Origin: an uncultured Prevotellaceae bacterium
GTDB taxonomy: Bacteria > Bacteroidota > Bacteroidia > Bacteroidales > Muribaculaceae
Length of the DNA stretch: 64,000 bases
Assembly (NCBI GenBank): GCA_900318535.1
Contig: ONKU01000007.1
Coordinates: 62,001 to 126,000, forward strand
Reading direction: 5' to 3'
Part shown: positions 2,370 to 35,087 of the stretch, piece by piece
How positions within the stretch are numbered: position 1 is the stretch's first letter
Layout of the letters: every line of letters begins with the position of its first letter
Made by a program: the position numbers and the translations under genes
The notes under the pieces: model-generated
What the model was told of the DNA's origin: nothing
Database searches by the model: none
What the model saw: the letters and a program-made list of their open reading frames with translations, nothing else

Positions 2370-3536
2370 TCAAGGCACATACACCGGATTGAGACACTCT
2401 TTCTTCAATCGCCACGAGAGCAGCATGGGCAGAATCATGAATCCGATGAGCGCCGCGTAATAGTATCGTGAATAGTACAGGTCGATGCCGTTCAGGGCCT
2501 GATCAACCATGATAAGGAAATAATACTTGACGGGCACCACAAAGCCCAAGGCCTCGACCCACGGATACATGGCCTCCTGGGGCAGCGAGAAACCCGTAAA
2601 CGAGAACGACACCATGCCCAACAGCGTACACAACATCGTGCCATAACGGAAATTGGGCACAAAACAGTACATGAGCACCGCAAAACTCTGGTTGGCCACC
2701 ACGAGCAGGAACATCGCGCTGAGCATGTGCCACGGGTTGCAGTTGAGCGGGAAGTCATAGCAGCGGTACATCATCCACTGGATAAACCAGCCCACAGCAG
2801 TAAAGAGCACCGTCTGCGGCACGAGTTTGCCAACCAGGGCGAGGAACATGCTGTTGCCCGAAGTCTTAAGCCACTGGCGGCTCAAGCCCGACTTGAGTTC
2901 GAGTCCAAGCGAGAACGCCGTCACCAGCAGGATGAACAGCGACAGGAAACAAGGTACGAACGTCGAATTCAGGTAGTAATTGTAGTTGGTGAACGGGTTG
3001 TTGAGTGCGTGGACATGGGTCTGGATGGGCTGCAGGGTAGATGCGATTTTCTCATTGCTCAAGCCCACGGTGCGCAAGGCCGTCTGCACGATGGCACCGT
3101 TGGCAAGCATCGACATGGTCTTGAAGCCCTTGTACTGCATCGACGCGGGCGCAAAGTAGGCATAGTTCACATAGTAGCTCACCACCGGCTGGCGACCGCC
3201 CAGGGCCTCCTCTTCCAGATACTCGGGAATAAGGAAGAAACCCAGCACCTCGCCGCGCTGCACGGCATCACGCGCATCGGCAAAGTTGCTGTAACGGCGG
3301 CAGATGTTCACTTGCTGGAAGCCGTTCAACGTGCGCGACACTTGACGTGACAGAACGCTGTTGTCCAGGTCGACGATACCCACGGGCACGCGTTCGACGG
3401 AGCCGCCCTTGATCAGGTCCATCAGGTACCAGCAGCACAGCAGCGGCATGATGACAATCAGCAGGAAATACATGGGTCGCCGCACGAGTTGCACACACCC
3501 GCGCTTGAACGACTGACCTATGTATCTCAGTATCAT
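2370..3536 (-). CDS. ABC-2 type transporter permease (first of pair)
   Basis: The 388-residue protein has the same topology as its downstream neighbour. A first helix lies at about residues 23-41, a long periplasmic domain follows, then about five helices. A TGFSLPQEAMYPW segment near residue 315 matches the ABC-2 signature. The periplasmic opening VPVGIVDLDNS is typical of this family in Bacteroidales exporters that work with HlyD and TolC partners. The start codon abuts a perfect 7-base-period repeat array in the 69-base gap after hlyD. The protein is clearly a permease; whether it is powered by an ATPase encoded elsewhere cannot be decided here. Confidence 0.85.
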   Translation of the reverse strand: MILRYIGQSFKRGCVQLVRRPMYFLLIVIMPLLCCWYLMDLIKGGSVERVPVGIVDLDNSVLSRQVSRTLNGFQQVNICRRYSNFADARDAVQRGEVLGFFLIPEYLEEEALGGRQPVVSYYVNYAYFAPASMQYKGFKTMSMLANGAIVQTALRTVGLSNEKIASTLQPIQTHVHALNNPFTNYNYYLNSTFVPCFLSLFILLVTAFSLGLELKSGLSRQWLKTSGNSMFLALVGKLVPQTVLFTAVGWFIQWMMYRCYDFPLNCNPWHMLSAMFLLVVANQSFAVLMYCFVPNFRYGTMLCTLLGMVSFSFTGFSLPQEAMYPWVEALGFVVPVKYYFLIMVDQALNGIDLYYSRYYYAALIGFMILPMLLSWRLKKECLNPVYVP

Positions 3537-3592
3537 AGTTTTTAGTTTTTAGTTTCTAGTCCCTAGTTGTTAGTCCCTAGTTGTTAGTTGGT
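3536..3592. repeat. 7-base-period array, eight TAGTnnn units
   Basis: TAG occurs at 3536, 3543, 3550, 3557, 3564, 3571, 3578 and 3585, exactly seven bases apart. Units read TAGTTTT, TAGTTTT, TAGTTTC, TAGTCCC, TAGTTGT, TAGTCCC, TAGTTGT, TAGTTGG. The array fills the gap between hlyD and the permease gene. On the coding (minus) strand it reads as AACTAnn units running directly into the ATG. Confidence 0.9.
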
Positions 3593-3605: not shown

Positions 3606-4616
3606 TTATTTGTCGAGGATGACCGACATGCCGGGGCGCAGGTTGGGCACCTTGCTCACGGGGCGCATCTTCACCTCAAAGGTCTTGCTGTCGTACTGGC
3701 CCTGAGCCTTGGAGGCCTGCCAAACGGCAAAGCTGCCCATGTCGTGGATGTAATAGACCGACATCTTGGTCTGCATGTTGTTCAACGCGGGGATGCGCAC
3801 ATTCACTTCCTTGCCCATGGGCAGGTCGTTCAACATTTCTTCACGCACGCTGAAGCTCACCCACATGTCGTCCAACTTGGCAATCGACATGATGGGCGTG
3901 CCCATGGCCACGAGTTCGCCCTCCTGCGGGTAAATCTCACTCACCTCACCGTCACACGGTGCCAGCAGCACCTGGTCCTCGAGCAGGCTTTCCACCTCCT
4001 TAACCGTTCCGCGTGCCACGTTAGCCATGCTGCGGGCGGCATTCTTGTCCTCCTGCTGAGCACCCCTCACAGCCATGTCATACTGGGCCTTGGCGGCCTT
4101 GACCTGAGCCGTAGCGGCATCATAGGCGGCACGGGCCTCGTCACGCTTCTGCTGCGTGGCCACGCCCTGCTTGAACAGGTTCTCGACACGCTGGTAGGTC
4201 TTCTCGGCAATGGTCTGTGCAGCGATAGCCTGCTGCCACATGTTGTAAGCGCTCTGCTTGAGCTCCTCGCGTGTACCCTTCTCGGCCTTCTGGTTCTGGG
4301 AAGCGGCAGCGGCGGCAGCCTGCTGAGCCTGATAGTACTTGGCATCGACAGTGCTGGAGTAGATGCTCACCAGCTTGTCGCCCTTGTGCACGGTGTCGCC
4401 CTCGTGCACATAGAAACGCACGATGCGACCGGGCAGCTTGCCGCTCACGCGCACGGCGTCACAGTCGGCCTGACCCTGGGTCAACGTGTCGGCGGGATGG
4501 ATGAGCAGGATGCCCACCACGGCGATGCAAGCCATCACCAGGGCGAAAACGGCCAGAGCGGCCAGCAACGCCTTGTCTTTCTTGCGGACCACGGTTCTTT
4601 GTTCGTCTTTTTCCAT
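3606..4616 (-). CDS. HlyD-family periplasmic adaptor of efflux/secretion system
   Basis: The 336-residue adaptor has one N-terminal membrane helix (about residues 17-39). The first half of a lipoyl-like (barrel-sandwich) domain follows around GRIVRFYVHEGDTVHKGDKL. A long Ala/Gln/Lys-rich coiled-coil hairpin covers about residues 90-195, then the second lipoyl half (APCDGEVSEIYPQEGELV) and a beta-barrel segment. Such proteins bridge an inner-membrane exporter to a TolC-type outer-membrane channel. It sits between the TolC-like gene (85 bases upstream) and two ABC-2 permeases (downstream) on the same strand, which fixes its partners. The closest described type is the EmrA/YbhG-like adaptor. Confidence 0.9.
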   Translation of the reverse strand: MEKDEQRTVVRKKDKALLAALAVFALVMACIAVVGILLIHPADTLTQGQADCDAVRVSGKLPGRIVRFYVHEGDTVHKGDKLVSIYSSTVDAKYYQAQQAAAAAASQNQKAEKGTREELKQSAYNMWQQAIAAQTIAEKTYQRVENLFKQGVATQQKRDEARAAYDAATAQVKAAKAQYDMAVRGAQQEDKNAARSMANVARGTVKEVESLLEDQVLLAPCDGEVSEIYPQEGELVAMGTPIMSIAKLDDMWVSFSVREEMLNDLPMGKEVNVRIPALNNMQTKMSVYYIHDMGSFAVWQASKAQGQYDSKTFEVKMRPVSKVPNLRPGMSVILDK

Positions 4617-4620
4617 ATTC

Positions 4621-4690
4621 TAGTTTTTAGTTACAAGTTCTGATTTTTATCTGCTCTAGATGCTCTAGAGTTTCTAGACAATCTAGAGTA
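4621..4690. repeat. Compound array: 7-base TAGTTnn units, then four TCTAGA units at exact 9-base period
   Basis: In the gap between the TolC-like and HlyD-like genes, TAG occurs at 4621 and 4628, followed by AAG at 4635 (period 7). TCTAGA then occurs at 4655, 4664, 4673 and 4682, exactly nine bases apart, with variable three-base spacers TGC, GTT, CAA and GTA. CTAG is usually rare in bacterial DNA, so four copies in 33 bases is not chance. Confidence 0.9.
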
Positions 4691-4701
4691 TCTCGACTTT
4701 T

Positions 4702-6297: not shown

Positions 6298-6331
6298 CTA
6301 AAGGCTAAAACCTAAAACATAAAGCCTACTT
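6298..6331. repeat. 7-base-period array overlapping the DUF3108 gene stop
   Basis: CTAA-type cores occur at 6298, 6305, 6312, 6319 (ATAA) and 6326 (CTAC), each seven bases apart. On the minus strand these are TTAGnnn units. The last unit contains the TAG stop codon of the gene at 6326-7069, so the array begins inside the coding sequence and continues downstream of it. Confidence 0.85.
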
Positions 6332-7069
6332 CTTATAATAGCACTTCACCTCGCCCACGGGGAGCTTGCCCACCAGCAGCAGGGGAATGCGGCTGTCGTC
6401 GGTCGCCATCCAGGCGGTGAGGTTGTCGCTGGACTTCTTGCCACCCTCCTGGGTGAACTTGAAGGAGATGCGGTGAGCCTGACGCTTGGTGCCGTCACGC
6501 ATCTTGATGGTTTCCACACCCTTGTAGTTGATGGTGAGATACTCCTTCTCCTTGCCCGAGAAGATGACGGTGGTGTAGTTCTTGTTGCGGCTCAACTCAT
6601 TGTAGTCCAAGTTGCGCAGCATGTAGAAGACGCTCACCATGTCATAGGCCTGCGCCTTGGCGCTCAGGTCGATGCTGGTCGTCCCGCTCTTGCGGTAGCG
6701 GGTGCAGTGGGCCTTGGTGTGGCTGTAATTGTACGAGAACTTGATCAGGTCGCGGGCATAGTAGTCCTTCTCGTGGGTCAGTTTCTCATACTTCAGCGGC
6801 CTGAGCTCGCTGTCCATGGTGCACTTGAGGGTGTCGCGCACGGGATACACCTTGTCGGCCCACGAGCGTGTCTTGCCGGTGAGCTGGGCATAGTAGCCGT
6901 CCTTGGTCTTGCGGGTGCTCAGCGTCGCGTCAGCGGCATGCTTCCAGATCATGCCCCAGTGGTACACGATCTCATAATTCAGGGTCTCGTTGCTGAAGTC
7001 CCTTGCCCACAGTTGCTGCGGCAGCACGAGCGCCACCACAAACGTCACCATTGTCAGTAAACGTTTCAT
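6326..7069 (-). CDS. DUF3108 domain-containing exported protein
   Basis: The 247-residue protein has a signal peptide (MKRLLTMVTFVVALVLPQQLWA). The rest matches the DUF3108 pattern: NETLNYEIVYHWGMIWKHA near the N-terminus, DTLKCTMDSELRPLKYEKL in the middle, and a WMATDDSRIPLLLVGKLPVG ending. DUF3108 proteins are periplasmic or outer-membrane associated beta-rich proteins of unsettled function. It is on the same strand as the neighbours on both sides but separated by 65 bases from the next gene upstream and almost 200 from the TolC-like gene. No clear promoter box is seen directly before it, so it may be transcribed with the gene at 7134-7763. Confidence 0.85.
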   Translation of the reverse strand: MKRLLTMVTFVVALVLPQQLWARDFSNETLNYEIVYHWGMIWKHAADATLSTRKTKDGYYAQLTGKTRSWADKVYPVRDTLKCTMDSELRPLKYEKLTHEKDYYARDLIKFSYNYSHTKAHCTRYRKSGTTSIDLSAKAQAYDMVSVFYMLRNLDYNELSRNKNYTTVIFSGKEKEYLTINYKGVETIKMRDGTKRQAHRISFKFTQEGGKKSSDNLTAWMATDDSRIPLLLVGKLPVGEVKCYYKK

Positions 7070-8517: not shown

Positions 8518-8556
8518 AACTCAAAACTCAAAACTAAAAACTCAAAACTAAAAACC
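8518..8556. repeat. 7-base-period AACTnnn array upstream of the gene at 8562
   Basis: AACT occurs at 8518, 8525, 8532, 8539 and 8546 and AACC at 8553, exactly seven bases apart, with remainders CAA, CAA, AAA, CAA and AAA. The array ends six bases before the ATG at 8562. It is the complementary form of the TAGTTnn units at 3536-3592. Confidence 0.9.
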
Positions 8557-8561
8557 AAACC

Positions 8562-8972
8562 ATGAAATACCGCATCGACATCGTCATCGACCTGGATGAC
8601 ATTCAGCAAGCCATTTACACCGAGGGAGTCTGGCACCCCGCCGGCAACGCCACCGCCTGGGGCGTGAACCCGAGTAATGAACCCATCGTGGACCGCCGCG
8701 TGCGTGAAGGCCTTGACGACCTGCTCGCCCGCATGAGCGGCTACATCGTGAGCCAAAACATCAACTTCAACCTCGAGAGCCAAAACATCGTGCTGGGCAT
8801 CGAACTCAAGAAGCGGCCGCTGCTCTCGCTGGCCAGCGACCTCAAGAACGCCATCGTCGCCGCACTGGCCAACTACACGCTGATGTCGCTCTACGGCGAC
8901 GAGGACAGCATCTACGGCACGGCCTGGCGCCTGCACCGCGCCCGCGTGCTGCTCCTCCTGTGCCGCCCGTAA
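8562..8972 (+). CDS. Unrecognised small protein
   Basis: The 136-residue product has no signal peptide or membrane helix, and I do not recognise a family. It starts with a beta-like segment (YRIDIVIDLDDI), has an aromatic GVWHPAG turn and an acidic-basic middle, then the IVLGIELKKRPLLSLASDLK segment, and ends hydrophobic (RARVLLLLCRP). The gene follows the two-repeat protein at 8014 and probably shares its promoter, so the two are likely one unit. A strong terminator follows 35 bases after the stop. Codon use looks like the flanking chromosome, with no sign of recent transfer. Confidence 0.65.
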   Translation: MKYRIDIVIDLDDIQQAIYTEGVWHPAGNATAWGVNPSNEPIVDRRVREGLDDLLARMSGYIVSQNINFNLESQNIVLGIELKKRPLLSLASDLKNAIVAALANYTLMSLYGDEDSIYGTAWRLHRARVLLLLCRP

Positions 8973-20512: not shown

Positions 20513-20869
20513 ATGGACACAACCGACTGGAAAGACGCGCTGGGCAAAGCGTTTAACATGCCCGTCCCCGAGGCCGGGGACAACACTCCCGACAAGGGCG
20601 AACAGGCTGCCAACGACAAGGGTGACGCCCTGCAGCAGCAAGGGGCCCGCCGCCTGAGCATCGTGCTGGAACGCAAGGGCCGCGGCGGCAAGCAGGCGAC
20701 GATTGTCACCGGCTTTGTCGCCGACGACGAGGCTGTCAAGCAGGTGGCTTCGCAGCTCAAACGCAAGCTAGGCGTGGGCGGCAGTGCCCGCGGCGGCGAG
20801 ATCTTGATCCAGGGCGACTTCAGGCAACGCGTGGCCGAGGAGTTGAGGGCGTTAGGGTTTAAGTGTTAG
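20513..20869 (+). CDS. SUI1/YciH-family translation initiation factor
   Basis: The product has 118 residues from the ATG at 20513 (MDTTDWKDALG). The C-terminal 75 residues are the SUI1/eIF1-like domain: LSIVLERKGRGGKQATIVTG, a helix DDEAVKQVASQLKRKLGVGG, then EILIQGDFRQRVAEELRALG. YciH-type proteins resemble eukaryotic eIF1 and act at start-codon selection on the small ribosomal subunit, though the bacterial role is modest. The N-terminal 40 residues are low-complexity. An ATG at 20471 is in frame but sits almost at the predicted transcription start. The last codons (LGFKC stop) are written in a 7-base-period array that continues to the next gene. Confidence 0.85.
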   Translation: MDTTDWKDALGKAFNMPVPEAGDNTPDKGEQAANDKGDALQQQGARRLSIVLERKGRGGKQATIVTGFVADDEAVKQVASQLKRKLGVGGSARGGEILIQGDFRQRVAEELRALGFKC

Positions 20870-20886
20870 GCTTTAGGTTTTAGGAG
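20852..20886. repeat. 7-base-period TTAGnnn array overlapping the SUI1 3' end
   Basis: TTAG occurs at 20852, 20866, 20873 and 20880 and TTAA at 20859, all in one 7-base register. Units read TTAGGGT, TTAAGTG, TTAGGCT, TTAGGTT, TTAGGAG. The first units encode the SUI1 C-terminus and the last one ends two bases before the ATG at 20888. Confidence 0.9.
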
Positions 20887-20887
20887 G

Positions 20888-23800
20888 ATGAGGGATAATA
20901 CACGCAATCTGTTGGTCATCAAGGCGTCGGCGGGGTCGGGAAAGACCTACGCCCTGGCCAAGGAATACATCAAGCATCTGCTGTTCACCACGAGTGAGGA
21001 CGGCTCGGGCCACATTGTGCCGCGGCGCCGCCCTGGTGACACGCGCCCCCTCAATGCCCACCGGCTGCTGCTGGCCATCACGTTCACCAACAAGGCCACC
21101 GACCAGATGAAAAGCCGCATCGTCAAGGAATTGCACCGCCTGTCGCAACCTGCCGTGAAGAGCGACTACCTGCAGAACTTCATGGACGAGACGGGACTTG
21201 ACGAGACGACGGTGCGCACGCTGGCACGCCAGGCGCTGAGCGAATTGCTGTTTGACTACAGCAACTTCAACGTGAGCACCATCGACTCGTTTTTCCAGAG
21301 CATCCTGCGCAATTTTGCACGAGAGTTGGACCGCGACTTCAACTACGACATCCAGCTCGACGAGAAATATGCCGTGCGTGCGGCGACCCACAGTTTCCTG
21401 CTCACGCTGGGCAGGTCACCCGTCGTCACGGCCGTGGACAAGTGGGTCAAAGAGTACCAGCGTCACCTGATCAACGACAAAGCCAAGACCAAACAGTGGA
21501 AATTCTTCAGGGATGATGGCGGCAACCTGAGCGAGTTTGCCAACATCATCAACAGCGAGGAATTCCGCGGCAAGATGGACGAGATACGCAACTATCTGGG
21601 CTCGGTGGACGAGAACGGCGAGTTTGTGAGCGACTTCGGGCCCATCCAGCGCTTCAAGGCCTGGATCAACCGCATGATTGAGGTCGAGGAAGAGCGCATC
21701 ACTCAAGCCGATGCCGAACTCCTCCAGTACCTGGCCCCCATGGCCAGCGCGCTCAAGGGTGCCCTGTCCAACTTTTATGAGAAAGGGGTATATGCTGCCA
21801 AATCACCCCTCAAGGACGCCGACGAGACCAAAATTGCCAGTCAGTTCCGCAAGGGACAAGAACCTGACGACAGCGTCATCGCCCACATCACCCAACTGGT
21901 AGCCAGCCACTTCAACGGCGAGCGTTTCGTCACCTTCCTGCAAGCCATCGGTAACAACTTGGGACTGCTGGGCATGCTGGGCATGATCGACGTGCACCTG
22001 GAGCGCTTTCGCCACGAGACCAACTCCATCCTCATCGGCGACACTAACGAGCTCATCGGCACCGTGCTGGAGAGCGGCTCGGCCTTCGTGTATGAGCGCG
22101 TGGGCTCATCGGTTTCCCACTTCATGATCGACGAGTTCCAGGACACGAGTTCCAAGCAATATGACAACTTCAAGGGGCTGCTGCTCGAGAGTCTGGCGAG
22201 CGGCAACTTCAACATGCTCATCGGTGACGCCAAGCAGTCGATCTACCGCTTCCGCAATGCCGACCCGACCGTTTTCCGCGAGAAGGTGGACCTGGACTTC
22301 AAGAACGACATCACCGACGGCCTGGACGACGACAGCCGTCCTGCCCCCGGCGAGCCCACATCGACCAACTACCGTAGCTGCCGCCACATCATCGAGTTCA
22401 ACAACAGCCTGTTTGAGCACATCAGCCAACACTATGCCGACCAGCCGATGATTACCGGCACCTATCGGGATTACCTCCAAGGCATGCCCCCGGGCATCGA
22501 CGAGAAGAAACTGCCCGGATATGTGAGGCTGTACACGGACAAATACCACGAGCTGGCCAAGGACGAGTTCATCCGCGGCATCCTGGCCGAGCAGGGAGAT
22601 CTGCCTGGCGAGGGCGAGTCGCAAAACAGCATCGACACCCTGAAACTGCTGCCCGCCTACCTGATGAAGCTGCACCAGCGCTACCAGTGGGGACAAATAG
22701 GCATCCTGGTCTATACCAACTCCGATGGCCAGCAGGTGGTGCAGCGCATCCTTGAATATAACCAGCGCACGTCAGGAGAGCAGATCAAGGTCATTTCGGG
22801 CGAGTCGCTGCTACTCAACAACTCCCCCATCATCAGACGCATCATCGCCATGCTGCGCTTCATCGACGCCTGCCAGTTCACCGCCGGCGAGGATGGTGAA
22901 ACCGACAACGAGGAACAGGTGGACGAGACTGTCAAAAGGATGCGCGAGAGCATCAGGCGCAAGCTGCTGAACGACCAACGGCTGTATGCCGGACTCAGCC
23001 GCTTCATACAAGCCATCGCGGCACGTCCCCAGCAAGACGACATCACGCCTGCCGAGGCCGGCGCCATCCTTACCCAGAGCATGGACGCCGTGGCCCAGAG
23101 CGGCAATGAAGGCGACACCCCGCAGGACGGCTTTGCCCGCACACTGGTAGAACTGCTGCCCAGCAACGGCGAACTCGCCACACTATCGAGCATCATCGAG
23201 ACCATCATCGCCCACTTCAAGCGTGAGACCGCCACTGGCGATGGAGAGAACGACCTGGACCGCGAAACGGCTTTCCTGCTGGCATTCCAGGACACAGTGT
23301 CGCAATTCTGCTCGCAGCGCAACGGCGGCAGCGTGCGGGAATTCCTGCGCTACTGGGACGAGAAAAAGGACTCGCTGGCGATGAGCAGTGACGAGAACGG
23401 TGACTCGGTGAACGTGATGACCATCCACAAGGCCAAGGGTCTGGAATTTGACTGCGTGGTGCTGCCGTTTGCCAACTGGCAGATTGACGGCAACTACCGC
23501 GAGGACAAGTATTGGGTCACACGTGATGTGTTTATCGACGCCTTGAGCGGCCTGCCCCTGGAGGGAGGGTTGCCTGACGCCGACATCGTGCCGCCCCTGG
23601 TGCGCATCGACGCCACAGTGACCAGCCAGCTCATCGAACAGGGCGTCATCGGTGGCAAGATGCGCGACTTTGTCAACAAGTGCGTGAGTGATGCGACCAT
23701 CGACAACCTGAACAAGACTTACGTGGCCATGACCCGCCCATGCATCGAGATGCACATCTTTTGCGGTACCGATGCCGACCGTAAGCACCACAATCACCTG

Positions 23801-24547
23801 AAACCGCTGCTCACCGGCTTCGCCCAGAGCGCTGGCACGATGCGCGCCATCACCTTGCCCGACGGCACCTCCGACAGCTGGTTTGAGTACGGGCGGCCGT
23901 CCTCGGCAGCCGAGATTGCCGCCTTCAAGCGGGCACAAGAGGAGCGGGACCAGGAGGAAGCGCCACTGAGCATTCCCATCACGGGTTACACCGTGAGCGA
24001 CATACCCGCCGAATTGCGCGTCAGGAGCGAAAACGTCTCCAGCTCGCACATCGATGCCGGCATCAGGCTCCACAGCCTGCTGAGCCGCATCGGCGACCGC
24101 AGCGACGTGGAACGCGTCATTGCACAAGGCCTGAAACAGGGCACCATCAACAACGACGAGAACGACCTGTGCGGCCTGGCCAGTGTCAATGCCCACATGC
24201 GCGACCCCATCATGGACGAGCGATGCCGCGTTGCGGCCTGGTTTGACCCCGCCAACAAGGTCTATAGCGAACGCACCATCACCACAGCCAACTCCAAGGC
24301 CAAAGACGGCATCGAGAACCTGCGTCCCGACCGCATCGTGCGCCGCCCCGACGGCCGCCTGCTGGTCATCGACTACAAGACCGGCCAGCGCGACGACAAG
24401 AAGTACTGCTCCAAGATGAAACGGTACATGGACAAGCTGCACGAGATGGGCATGGCCCCCAAGGGGATTGAGGGGCGCATCTGGTACACCACCCTCGACA
24501 CCATCATCGACGAGAGCGGCAAGGAGTTGGGGTTTTGTTTGGATTAG
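20888..24547 (+). CDS. UvrD/AddA-like helicase-nuclease for double-strand-break processing
   Basis: The 1219-residue protein has superfamily 1A helicase motifs: Walker A ASAGSGKT at 13-20, the Walker B region FMIDEFQDTSSKQYD, then IGDAKQSIYRFRNADP, TNYRSCRHIIEFN, VMTIHKAKGLEFDCVVLP and YVAMTRP. The C-terminal 100 residues form a RecB-type nuclease (LRPDRIVRRPDG, then VIDYKTG). This is the layout of AddA, which with AddB resects DNA ends for recombination. The usual QxxxY of the nuclease domain appears altered (SKMKRY). An AddB partner normally lies beside AddA-type genes, but the next gene here is a PIG-L deacetylase and the previous one SUI1, so AddB must be elsewhere or absent. Confidence 0.88.
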   Translation: MRDNTRNLLVIKASAGSGKTYALAKEYIKHLLFTTSEDGSGHIVPRRRPGDTRPLNAHRLLLAITFTNKATDQMKSRIVKELHRLSQPAVKSDYLQNFMDETGLDETTVRTLARQALSELLFDYSNFNVSTIDSFFQSILRNFARELDRDFNYDIQLDEKYAVRAATHSFLLTLGRSPVVTAVDKWVKEYQRHLINDKAKTKQWKFFRDDGGNLSEFANIINSEEFRGKMDEIRNYLGSVDENGEFVSDFGPIQRFKAWINRMIEVEEERITQADAELLQYLAPMASALKGALSNFYEKGVYAAKSPLKDADETKIASQFRKGQEPDDSVIAHITQLVASHFNGERFVTFLQAIGNNLGLLGMLGMIDVHLERFRHETNSILIGDTNELIGTVLESGSAFVYERVGSSVSHFMIDEFQDTSSKQYDNFKGLLLESLASGNFNMLIGDAKQSIYRFRNADPTVFREKVDLDFKNDITDGLDDDSRPAPGEPTSTNYRSCRHIIEFNNSLFEHISQHYADQPMITGTYRDYLQGMPPGIDEKKLPGYVRLYTDKYHELAKDEFIRGILAEQGDLPGEGESQNSIDTLKLLPAYLMKLHQRYQWGQIGILVYTNSDGQQVVQRILEYNQRTSGEQIKVISGESLLLNNSPIIRRIIAMLRFIDACQFTAGEDGETDNEEQVDETVKRMRESIRRKLLNDQRLYAGLSRFIQAIAARPQQDDITPAEAGAILTQSMDAVAQSGNEGDTPQDGFARTLVELLPSNGELATLSSIIETIIAHFKRETATGDGENDLDRETAFLLAFQDTVSQFCSQRNGGSVREFLRYWDEKKDSLAMSSDENGDSVNVMTIHKAKGLEFDCVVLPFANWQIDGNYREDKYWVTRDVFIDALSGLPLEGGLPDADIVPPLVRIDATVTSQLIEQGVIGGKMRDFVNKCVSDATIDNLNKTYVAMTRPCIEMHIFCGTDADRKHHNHLKPLLTGFAQSAGTMRAITLPDGTSDSWFEYGRPSSAAEIAAFKRAQEERDQEEAPLSIPITGYTVSDIPAELRVRSENVSSSHIDAGIRLHSLLSRIGDRSDVERVIAQGLKQGTINNDENDLCGLASVNAHMRDPIMDERCRVAAWFDPANKVYSERTITTANSKAKDGIENLRPDRIVRRPDGRLLVIDYKTGQRDDKKYCSKMKRYMDKLHEMGMAPKGIEGRIWYTTLDTIIDESGKELGFCLD

Positions 24548-24571
24548 AGATTAGAGATTAGTGATTAGAGA
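24544..24571. repeat. 7-base-period TTAGAGA array between the helicase and PIG-L genes
   Basis: TTAG occurs at 24544, 24551, 24558 and 24565; units TTAGAGA, TTAGAGA, TTAGTGA, TTAGAGA. The first TTAG contains the TAG stop codon of the helicase gene. The array fills the whole gap up to four bases before the next ATG. Confidence 0.92.
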
Positions 24572-35017: not shown

Positions 35018-35054
35018 TTCCCGAGCAACACATTATTTATAACTGATAAAAGGA

Positions 35055-35087
35055 TCTAGAAGATCTAGAATGTCTAGGTTTTCTAGA
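35055..35087. repeat. Four TCTAGA-type units at exact 9-base period
   Basis: TCTAGA occurs at 35055, 35064 and 35082 and TCTAGG at 35073, each nine bases apart. The flanks AAAGGATCTAGAA and TTCTAGATCCTTT form an inverted repeat (35049-35094). It sits between two tandem transporter genes, 25 bases before the second ATG. The design matches the array at 4655-4690, 30 kb away. Confidence 0.9.

Follow-up and report, generated by a model that had tools for sequence, protein, structure and literature searches.

Within the window (the whole 64,000-nucleotide stretch of DNA analysed, positions 62001-126000 of contig C20 in a genome, G000, of 2.92 Mb in 43 contigs), two genes on the minus strand are separated by a gap that contains a heptad array. 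One is an ORF for an ABC-2 type permease (2370..3536; Pfam PF12698, 4.2e-35), whose start codon adjoins the array, whilst the other, on the far side of the gap, specifies an HlyD-type membrane-fusion protein (3606..4616; Pfam PF16576, 6.6e-20) and served as our anchor for finding orthologous gaps. The array itself (3536..3588, plus strand) occupies the start slot of the permease gene and comprises eight TAGT cores, with TAG at 3536, 3543, 3550, 3557, 3564, 3571, 3578 and 3585; the exact 7-base step reported in the original prediction is thus correct. Successive cores are followed by the words TTT, TTT, TTC, CCC, TGT, CCC and TGT, with TGG behind the last core, and on the coding strand of the permease gene the same DNA reads as ACTANNN repeats directly 5' of the ATG. 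TRF additionally reported period 14 (100 % matches, 3557-3588) and period 21. An eight-unit TAGTNNN run occurs once in the window, against a mean of 0.00 in 100 dinucleotide-preserving shuffles, none of which held such a run. The looser pattern of four TAGNNNN units had six matches in the window (0.00 expected from shuffles), which, among the six places originally named, fell at 3536 and 24545 only.

All six places lie in short gaps at gene edges, in agreement with our own gene calls (made, here and in the comparisons below, with a home-made codon-bias caller), and all six carry period 7. They are not, however, copies of a single motif as had been proposed: the other five have other cores, forming several dialects, and the one at 4621 has only two units. 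This weak TAGTTTT remnant (4621..4632, plus strand; TAG at 4621 and 4628) lies before the HlyD start codon and shares its gap with a period-9 array of TCTAGANNN (4652..4696), which has a palindromic TCTAGA core and a variable three-base remainder; TCTAGA units are also present in this gap in the relatives G338, G345 and G207. Heptads of TTAGG or CTAAA type, with one core broken, run outward from the stop codon of the minus-strand gene 6326-7069 (6298..6328, minus strand). At 8518..8559 (listed on the minus strand), ACTCAAA/ACTAAAA heptads stand on the coding strand just before the ATG at 8562, with ACT at 8519, 8526, 8533, 8540 and 8547, and CTA in two units only. A further TTAGG-type array with one broken core (20851..20884, plus strand), found by TRF and absent from the array set of our period scan, overlaps the stop at 20869 and ends three bases before the ATG at 20888, and GATTAGN heptads (24542..24571, plus strand) begin at the TAG stop of gene 20888-24547. 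A second period-9 TCTAGANNN array (35053..35086), built like the first on palindromic TCTAGA with three variable bases per unit, spans the start codon at 35070 and runs on into the gene. At gathering scores, the search of the window for known RNA families returned nothing beyond two tRNAs.

A comparison of period-7 arrays with random sequence had been set beforehand as a test, and was run on 800 kb of the same genome plus the window, scoring tandem similarity at periods 4 to 15 with no motif preset and excluding low-complexity stretches more than 75 % alike at lags 1-3. This identified 60 period-7 arrays, 58 of them mostly intergenic (864-924 kb sample); in intergenic segments alone there were 53, whereas 20 replicates of a third-order Markov control averaged 0.0, so that the outcome named beforehand as refuting did not arise. 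Period 14 followed with 45 arrays (42 mostly intergenic), of which 39 overlap a period-7 array, and period 9 with 26 (11 mostly intergenic). The remaining periods gave few: nine arrays at period 12 and six at period 6 (none mostly intergenic in either case), eight at period 15 (three mostly intergenic), four at period 11 (two), three at period 8 (all three), one at period 10 (itself mostly intergenic), and none at periods 4, 5 and 13 in the same sample. Genome-wide, four consecutive TAGTNNN units were placed 143 times, against 0 for the reversed pattern; as the reversal, TGATNNN, is itself a heptad in some relatives, this zero is clean in the own genome but not everywhere. In the relative G100, for example, TGATNNN x4 is abundant (48 + 82, 130 placements) and TAGTNNN is absent, pointing to another lineage-specific heptad. 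A general 7-base periodicity of leaders was rejected, as own upstream regions with arrays removed gave 0.293 at lag 7 compared with 0.293 and 0.304 at lags 6 and 8.

The original prediction described a fixed core with a free remainder, unlike a perfect microsatellite. The unlikeness held up: across 58 arrays, mismatches at lag 7 cluster in particular columns instead of spreading evenly (combined z 17.5), and 25 arrays taken individually fall below 0.05. That the arrays arose by chance, or are decayed ordinary perfect microsatellites, therefore seems to us scarcely credible; zero arrays are expected from both the shuffles and the Markov control, mismatches are not spread over the columns, and words are common to unlinked loci, although, among the matches listed, many TAGTNNN heptads of other phyla are perfect or nearly so. 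The remainder, on the other hand, proved not to be free, being drawn instead from a small list of words with coupled letters. In 26 distinct arrays (152 units, of which 126 were counted, each array's last unit being set aside and arrays whose word string is contained in another's being left out), the words after TAGT were TTC (32), CCT (27), TTT (22), CCC (20) and TGT (13), with others making up 12, such that five words account for 114 of the 126 units. The mixed words CTC, CTT, TCC and TCT occurred only 1, 3, 2 and 2 times, compared with 11-16 expected for each from letter frequencies. Counted as doublets, there were 54 TT, 47 CC and eight mixed, for which Fisher values treat units as independent though they are not. 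The same words are used in G237, another species of the genus (14 arrays, 80 units; doublets TT 19, CC 51, mixed 6), and the arrays of G170, from another genus, contain chiefly TGT, TTT and CGT (28 arrays, 180 units). A word order common to different arrays was considered and rejected, with 3-grams found in at least three arrays summing to 9 compared with 6.7 in shuffles.

The suggestion that the arrays are a diversified slippage product comes near to the explanation that we now prefer, with one qualification. Single-unit slippage predicts identical neighbours, and identical neighbouring words showed no excess over shuffles in the own genome (14 vs 19.2), G237 (21 vs 21.9) or G170 (74 vs 78.2), which counts against that explanation. 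Identical words were in mild excess at greater distances, namely at lag 3 in the own genome (16 vs 9.9) and at lag 2 in G237 (25 vs 19.2) and G170 (72 vs 61.1), with the own lag-2 value (17 vs 14.5) being unclear; block duplication of two or three units thus fits better than single-unit slippage. Perfect runs do occur in G237 and G170, including one run of 12 CCT units in G237. The STRR of cyanobacteria are kindred heptamer repeats; these and the LSSR of Mrazek and colleagues are reportedly defined by near-perfect units, whereas units here vary word by word, and the near-identity of LSSR units has no counterpart in our arrays, where identical neighbours are no commoner than in shuffles.

Besides TAGTNNN, the own genome contains dialects of TTTAGRG, GATTAGN, TTAGGNN, TTAGGAG and NAGTTNT types (dialects and hairpins were read by eye). 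No GGG is found on the TAG strand of any of 17 TAGT arrays, G-tracts being confined to some units of other dialects, such as TTTAGGG, and tandem TAACTGA (two units) has 0 occurrences in the 924 kb own sample. The period-9 kind, with core TCTAGANNN, occupies 11 three-unit places in the own genome compared with 0 for its reversal, each place being found on both strands because the core is palindromic. We also observed dispersed AT-rich period-9 repeats of AACAAATAC and GAATTAAAC types (own C18:60891, C25:107968, C29:4940 and C15:127638), some of which are long inverted repeats and several of which end at a motif considered below, GGCATCCGC.

Of the 60 arrays, 53 repeat a TTAG, CTAG, TTAA or CTAA core at lag 7. 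As TTAG, CTAG and TTAA provide a stop on both strands, and as a 7-base step shifts the frame, three units close all six reading frames, raising the possibility that the arrays are spacers that block run-on or antisense translation. By this measure, 44 of the 60 own arrays close six frames within their own length, compared with 16.7 expected from dinucleotide shuffles of the arrays and with only 7 % of length-matched random intergenic segments; moreover, the stop-bearing core recurs in those same 53 arrays, and several stop-slot arrays take the TAG stop of the gene as their first. The figure of 53/60, however, reflects few events, since the dialects depend on one another; period-9 arrays place their stops in a single frame, and the ACTGAAA/ACTGACA and ACTCAAA units hold a stop on one strand only and yet occupy the same slots. 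The published GGGAATC heptads, judged from their sequence, hold no stop at all and do likewise, for which reason stop codons were rejected as a universal cause. We regard this stop-spacer reading as improbable. A protein-binding ladder on DNA or RNA, in which the core would be the site, the 7 bases the spacing and the remainder a spacer, had also been proposed; it received no direct support here and we consider it very unlikely. The core is indeed conserved whilst the remainder varies, and UAG is a core motif of some RRM proteins, but the same slots are filled by arrays with various cores and with either of two periods (7 and 9), sequences on the mRNA strand are opposite at starts and stops, and dialects differ within one genus.

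Arrays have a marked polarity relative to genes. Of 42 arrays with a called orientation and an unambiguous nearest gene edge, 37 have a TAG strand that points outward from this edge (24/27 at stops and 13/15 at starts). A further 17 without such an edge divide into 11 outward and six inward, and for the last of the 60 no orientation could be assigned. Ten of 16 clear start-slot arrays lie within 7 nt of the start. Exact TAGT heptads elsewhere are outward in 80 of 91 clear cases, comprising G237 (8/9), G170 (13/15), cyanobacterial hits (21/22), Bacteroidota hits (16/18) and other phyla (22/27), with phyla assigned from record titles. As a TAG-sense array may truncate an ORF and so appear stop-adjacent, start slots are given separately, and these alone give 36/38. 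The total of 170 TAGT arrays elsewhere further included 27 that lacked a flanking gene on one side, two intragenic ones (both antisense) and 50 that were far or ambiguous; loci of <1500 bases (e.g. L171) were skipped, and the contig scan comprised at least 119 stretches, with several hits from one genome.

Inspection by eye placed arrays in about nine gaps immediately behind a terminator-like hairpin, AAGTTTAGAGTTTAGGG being an example of the tails. At four own loci (C15:121892, C15:247335, C29:72972 and C27:4276) unlike terminator-like hairpins are each followed by a nearly identical AAGTTTAGAGTTTAGGG tail, which looks like a standard module behind the stem. At the start side, we folded leaders with outward arrays no more than 25 bases from the start (17 of the 19 outward ones, inward arrays being left out). 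Reversing these arrays in silico lowered the mean unpaired probability around the start from 0.640 to 0.458, with a decrease in 16 of 17, whereas shuffling them hardly changed it (0.622 vs 0.640, native being higher in 10 of 17 only). In this model, composition can thus explain the start-slot orientation, and the period does not. The available text of a study in Flavobacterium johnsoniae (Bacteroidetes) describes initiation without Shine-Dalgarno sequences that is tuned by mRNA structure (PMC6847099), and by analogy an unstructured leader would be plausible in the array host, if this is a member of the Bacteroidetes. The leader argument fails to cover every case, as GGGANTN heptads are polar too and their start-slot strand is not A-rich, as far as the accessible part of that report describes them (PMC4692102).

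Two arrays share a gap in nine of 51 array gaps, and all nine pairs are convergent; where the flanking genes are co-directional, the stop is followed by the TAG-strand array, a spacer, the reverse array and finally the start. These pairs, along with GGCATCCGC, point to a different origin, in which a dispersed palindrome would have GGCATCCGC at its centre and, as its arms, an array on one side and an inverted array on the other; single arrays would be half elements, and outward polarity would come for free. GGCATCCGC has 147 placements in the own genome compared with 17 for its reversal (18 of 48 being intergenic in the 864 kb sample), an excess that may in part come from codon usage in genes. 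With up to one mismatch allowed, 13 of 58 arrays (two of the 60 were not used) have the motif or its complement no more than 30 bases from the 3' end of the TAG strand (six and seven by orientation), and 0 of 58 have it at the 5' end, against 37 of 2600 background intergenic 33-mers; as facing arms can share one motif, and four motifs are shared, the 13 hits represent about nine distinct motifs. When 19 GGCATCCGC sites were folded, two gave arm stems at -53.5 and -52.3 kcal/mol, the rest ranging from -5.4 to -41.0. On the other side, 42 of 51 array gaps hold one array, the nine double gaps fall within random placement (mean 4.8, maximum 12, 2000 trials), and an inverted partner (z ≥ 3) was found in only three of 27 testable single arrays compared with one of 16 on the other side, so that decayed partner arms were rejected as the source of polarity. 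Furthermore, in most of 89 family genomes GGCATCCGC is not enriched over its reversal, the excess being seen in few (e.g. G017, 82 vs 16; G007, 127 vs 39). An origin as arms of such an element is in our judgement unlikely. By eye, GGCATCCGC is also preceded by other AT-rich period-9 repeats, and GGCATCCGC/GCATCCGC was observed at the 3' end of various dialects, often between inverted arms (G000:C29:139298, C27:4329, L218 and G207:C31).

As counted from our table, TAGTNNN x4 is present in 73 of 297 family genomes, 35 of them among the 40 of the own genus (own included) and 38 among the 257 elsewhere, although the reversed control was placed in 17 of the 40 own-genus genomes and low counts therefore mean little. 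High counts with zero for the reversal were found in the own genome (143), G232 (280) and G264 (299). In 100 kb samples, four close congeners had 3, 4, 4 and 11 intergenic period-7 arrays, G173 (own genus) and G003 (another genus) had none, G209 had one and G223 seven. The last, from another genus of the family, also displays on contig C36 period-9 TTGGACNTC-type arrays of up to 146 bases and period-7 GTTTAAN arrays. Loss of mismatch repair was rejected as a cause and is not needed, since 39 of 41 congeneric genomes, the own one included, have MutS.

Of 101 genomes of the own genus, 97 (own included) yielded the HlyD gene, and in 39 genomes, again with the own one, the encoded protein is at least 90 % identical. 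In the best 30 of these 97 loci, the own one among them, the gaps flanking the gene were read by eye; according to the species, they hold ACTANNN, ACTTANN, ACTGANN, TTAGGNN or TCTAGANNN arrays or are free of arrays. The focal gap measures 69 bases in the own genome and 76 in G338, i.e. one unit apart, and there a single base within one word separates G338 from G345. Three relatives with a mean identity of 81-85 % in the flanking genes were compared with own contig C20, and in 14 gaps one or more of the genomes had an array of period 7 or 9; some of these are conserved with whole-unit differences, some lack the array in one species and some have another dialect. The gap at 24547, for instance, contains GATTAGA in the own genome and G345, and TTAAAGG/TTAATGG in G338. 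A comparison centred on G338 (nine gaps) gave the same picture of whole-unit differences, absences and dialect changes. Among the matches listed, the same words also occurred at two loci of the uncultured Bacteroidales MAGs RUG14590 and RUG12225; at E 1e-20, no shared DNA linked these or five other loci to the own sample or to the relatives compared. The heptads could be spread as whole words through the genome by a dedicated or semi-dedicated copying process with GGCATCCGC as its preferred end point, a fixed codebook being re-ordered into lineage dialects within otherwise conserved operons. Copying of this kind may proceed by template switching at the TAGT core or by synthesis on a nucleic-acid template. 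We consider this codebook reading rather unlikely.

The original prediction knew of no description of such arrays; in fact, related systems have been published. In the portion available, Rehm et al. (2015; PMC4692102) report GGGAATC/(GGGANTN)n and GGGGA(C/T)T heptads in two xanthomonads and one Nostoc-type cyanobacterium, with 70 and 75 convergent pairs in the two xanthomonad species and the same edge positions and polarity as here. Those heptads resemble ours in their period of 7, conserved and variable positions, mostly intergenic location, convergent pairs, and lengths and sequences that vary between close species (PMC4692102). Our arrays likewise have 7-nt units with fixed and variable positions and an outward strand at both edges, and convergent inverted pairs in the nine double gaps, with three single arrays adding a weaker partner arm. 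In contrast, the published heptads are G-rich and quadruplex-forming, whereas the TAGT dialect lacks G-tracts, and one motif is described per genome studied, whereas here there are several dialects and a period-9 kind; the word list, central motif and dialect difference at one gap do not appear in the accessible text of that report (PMC4692102). TAACTGA direct repeats were described by MacGregor (2015; PMC4679880) in Beggiatoaceae, cyanobacteria and five Bacteroidetes, where most of them closely precede start codons and keep one orientation, as is also true of our start-slot arrays (13/15 outward, 10/16 within 7 nt). The parts of that paper at hand further note that 36 of 169 sets are split by one or two related heptamers and that differences between two close Cyanothece strains are mostly 7-nt indels (PMC4679880). 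Read from ACT, TAACTGA becomes ACTGATA, close to the congeners' ACTGACA/ACTGAAA start-slot units; it is, however, essentially one exact unit, and the accessible text mentions no stop-slot partner system (PMC4679880). Mrazek et al. (2007), as relayed in the available parts of both papers (PMC4692102, PMC4679880), described heptanucleotide long simple sequence repeats (LSSR) of prokaryotes, in which heptamers are over-represented and for which 7-nt polymerase slippage was proposed. Among the matches listed from open-licence PMC articles, no title or abstract opening describes TAGT-type word arrays in Bacteroidales, which is not proof of absence.

Taken together, we observed whole-unit differences, homogenised runs, shared words and polarity. 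We consider it an even call that the arrays are a heterogeneous intergenic heptad satellite, formed by block duplication, spread from a common stock of words and kept at gene edges in fixed polarity. Growth and shrinkage would occur by slippage or unequal duplication of blocks of one to three units (7, 14 or 21 bases). The shared words suggest that new arrays would not be built de novo from the DNA around each gene but would start as copies of a few pre-existing units (TAGT followed by CC, TT or TG and then by C or T), although selection instead of copying could also account for the sharing. As to the route, our guess is template switching at the TAGT core. Retention at gene edges in fixed polarity, for which part of the evidence is in hand, would follow at the start side from the A-rich strand being the mRNA strand, which in the folding model keeps the initiation region unpaired, whilst behind stop codons and terminator-like hairpins the opposite strand is the mRNA strand. 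Since related species can differ in the entire dialect that fills one slot, most arrays probably lack a dedicated regulatory role.

Bacterial heptameric repeats are over-represented and have no established role, according to the accessible part of one report (PMC4692102). Whilst the heptad architecture is already known, the limited word list and whole-ladder differences at one spot between species are unusual. This clade, with its many close species, some with more than 100 placements, several dialects and conserved flanks, makes the growth, spread and polarity of such arrays traceable gap by gap. The outward polarity of TAGT heptads in several phyla and of the published G-rich heptads points to a common, testable rule of gene-edge DNA.
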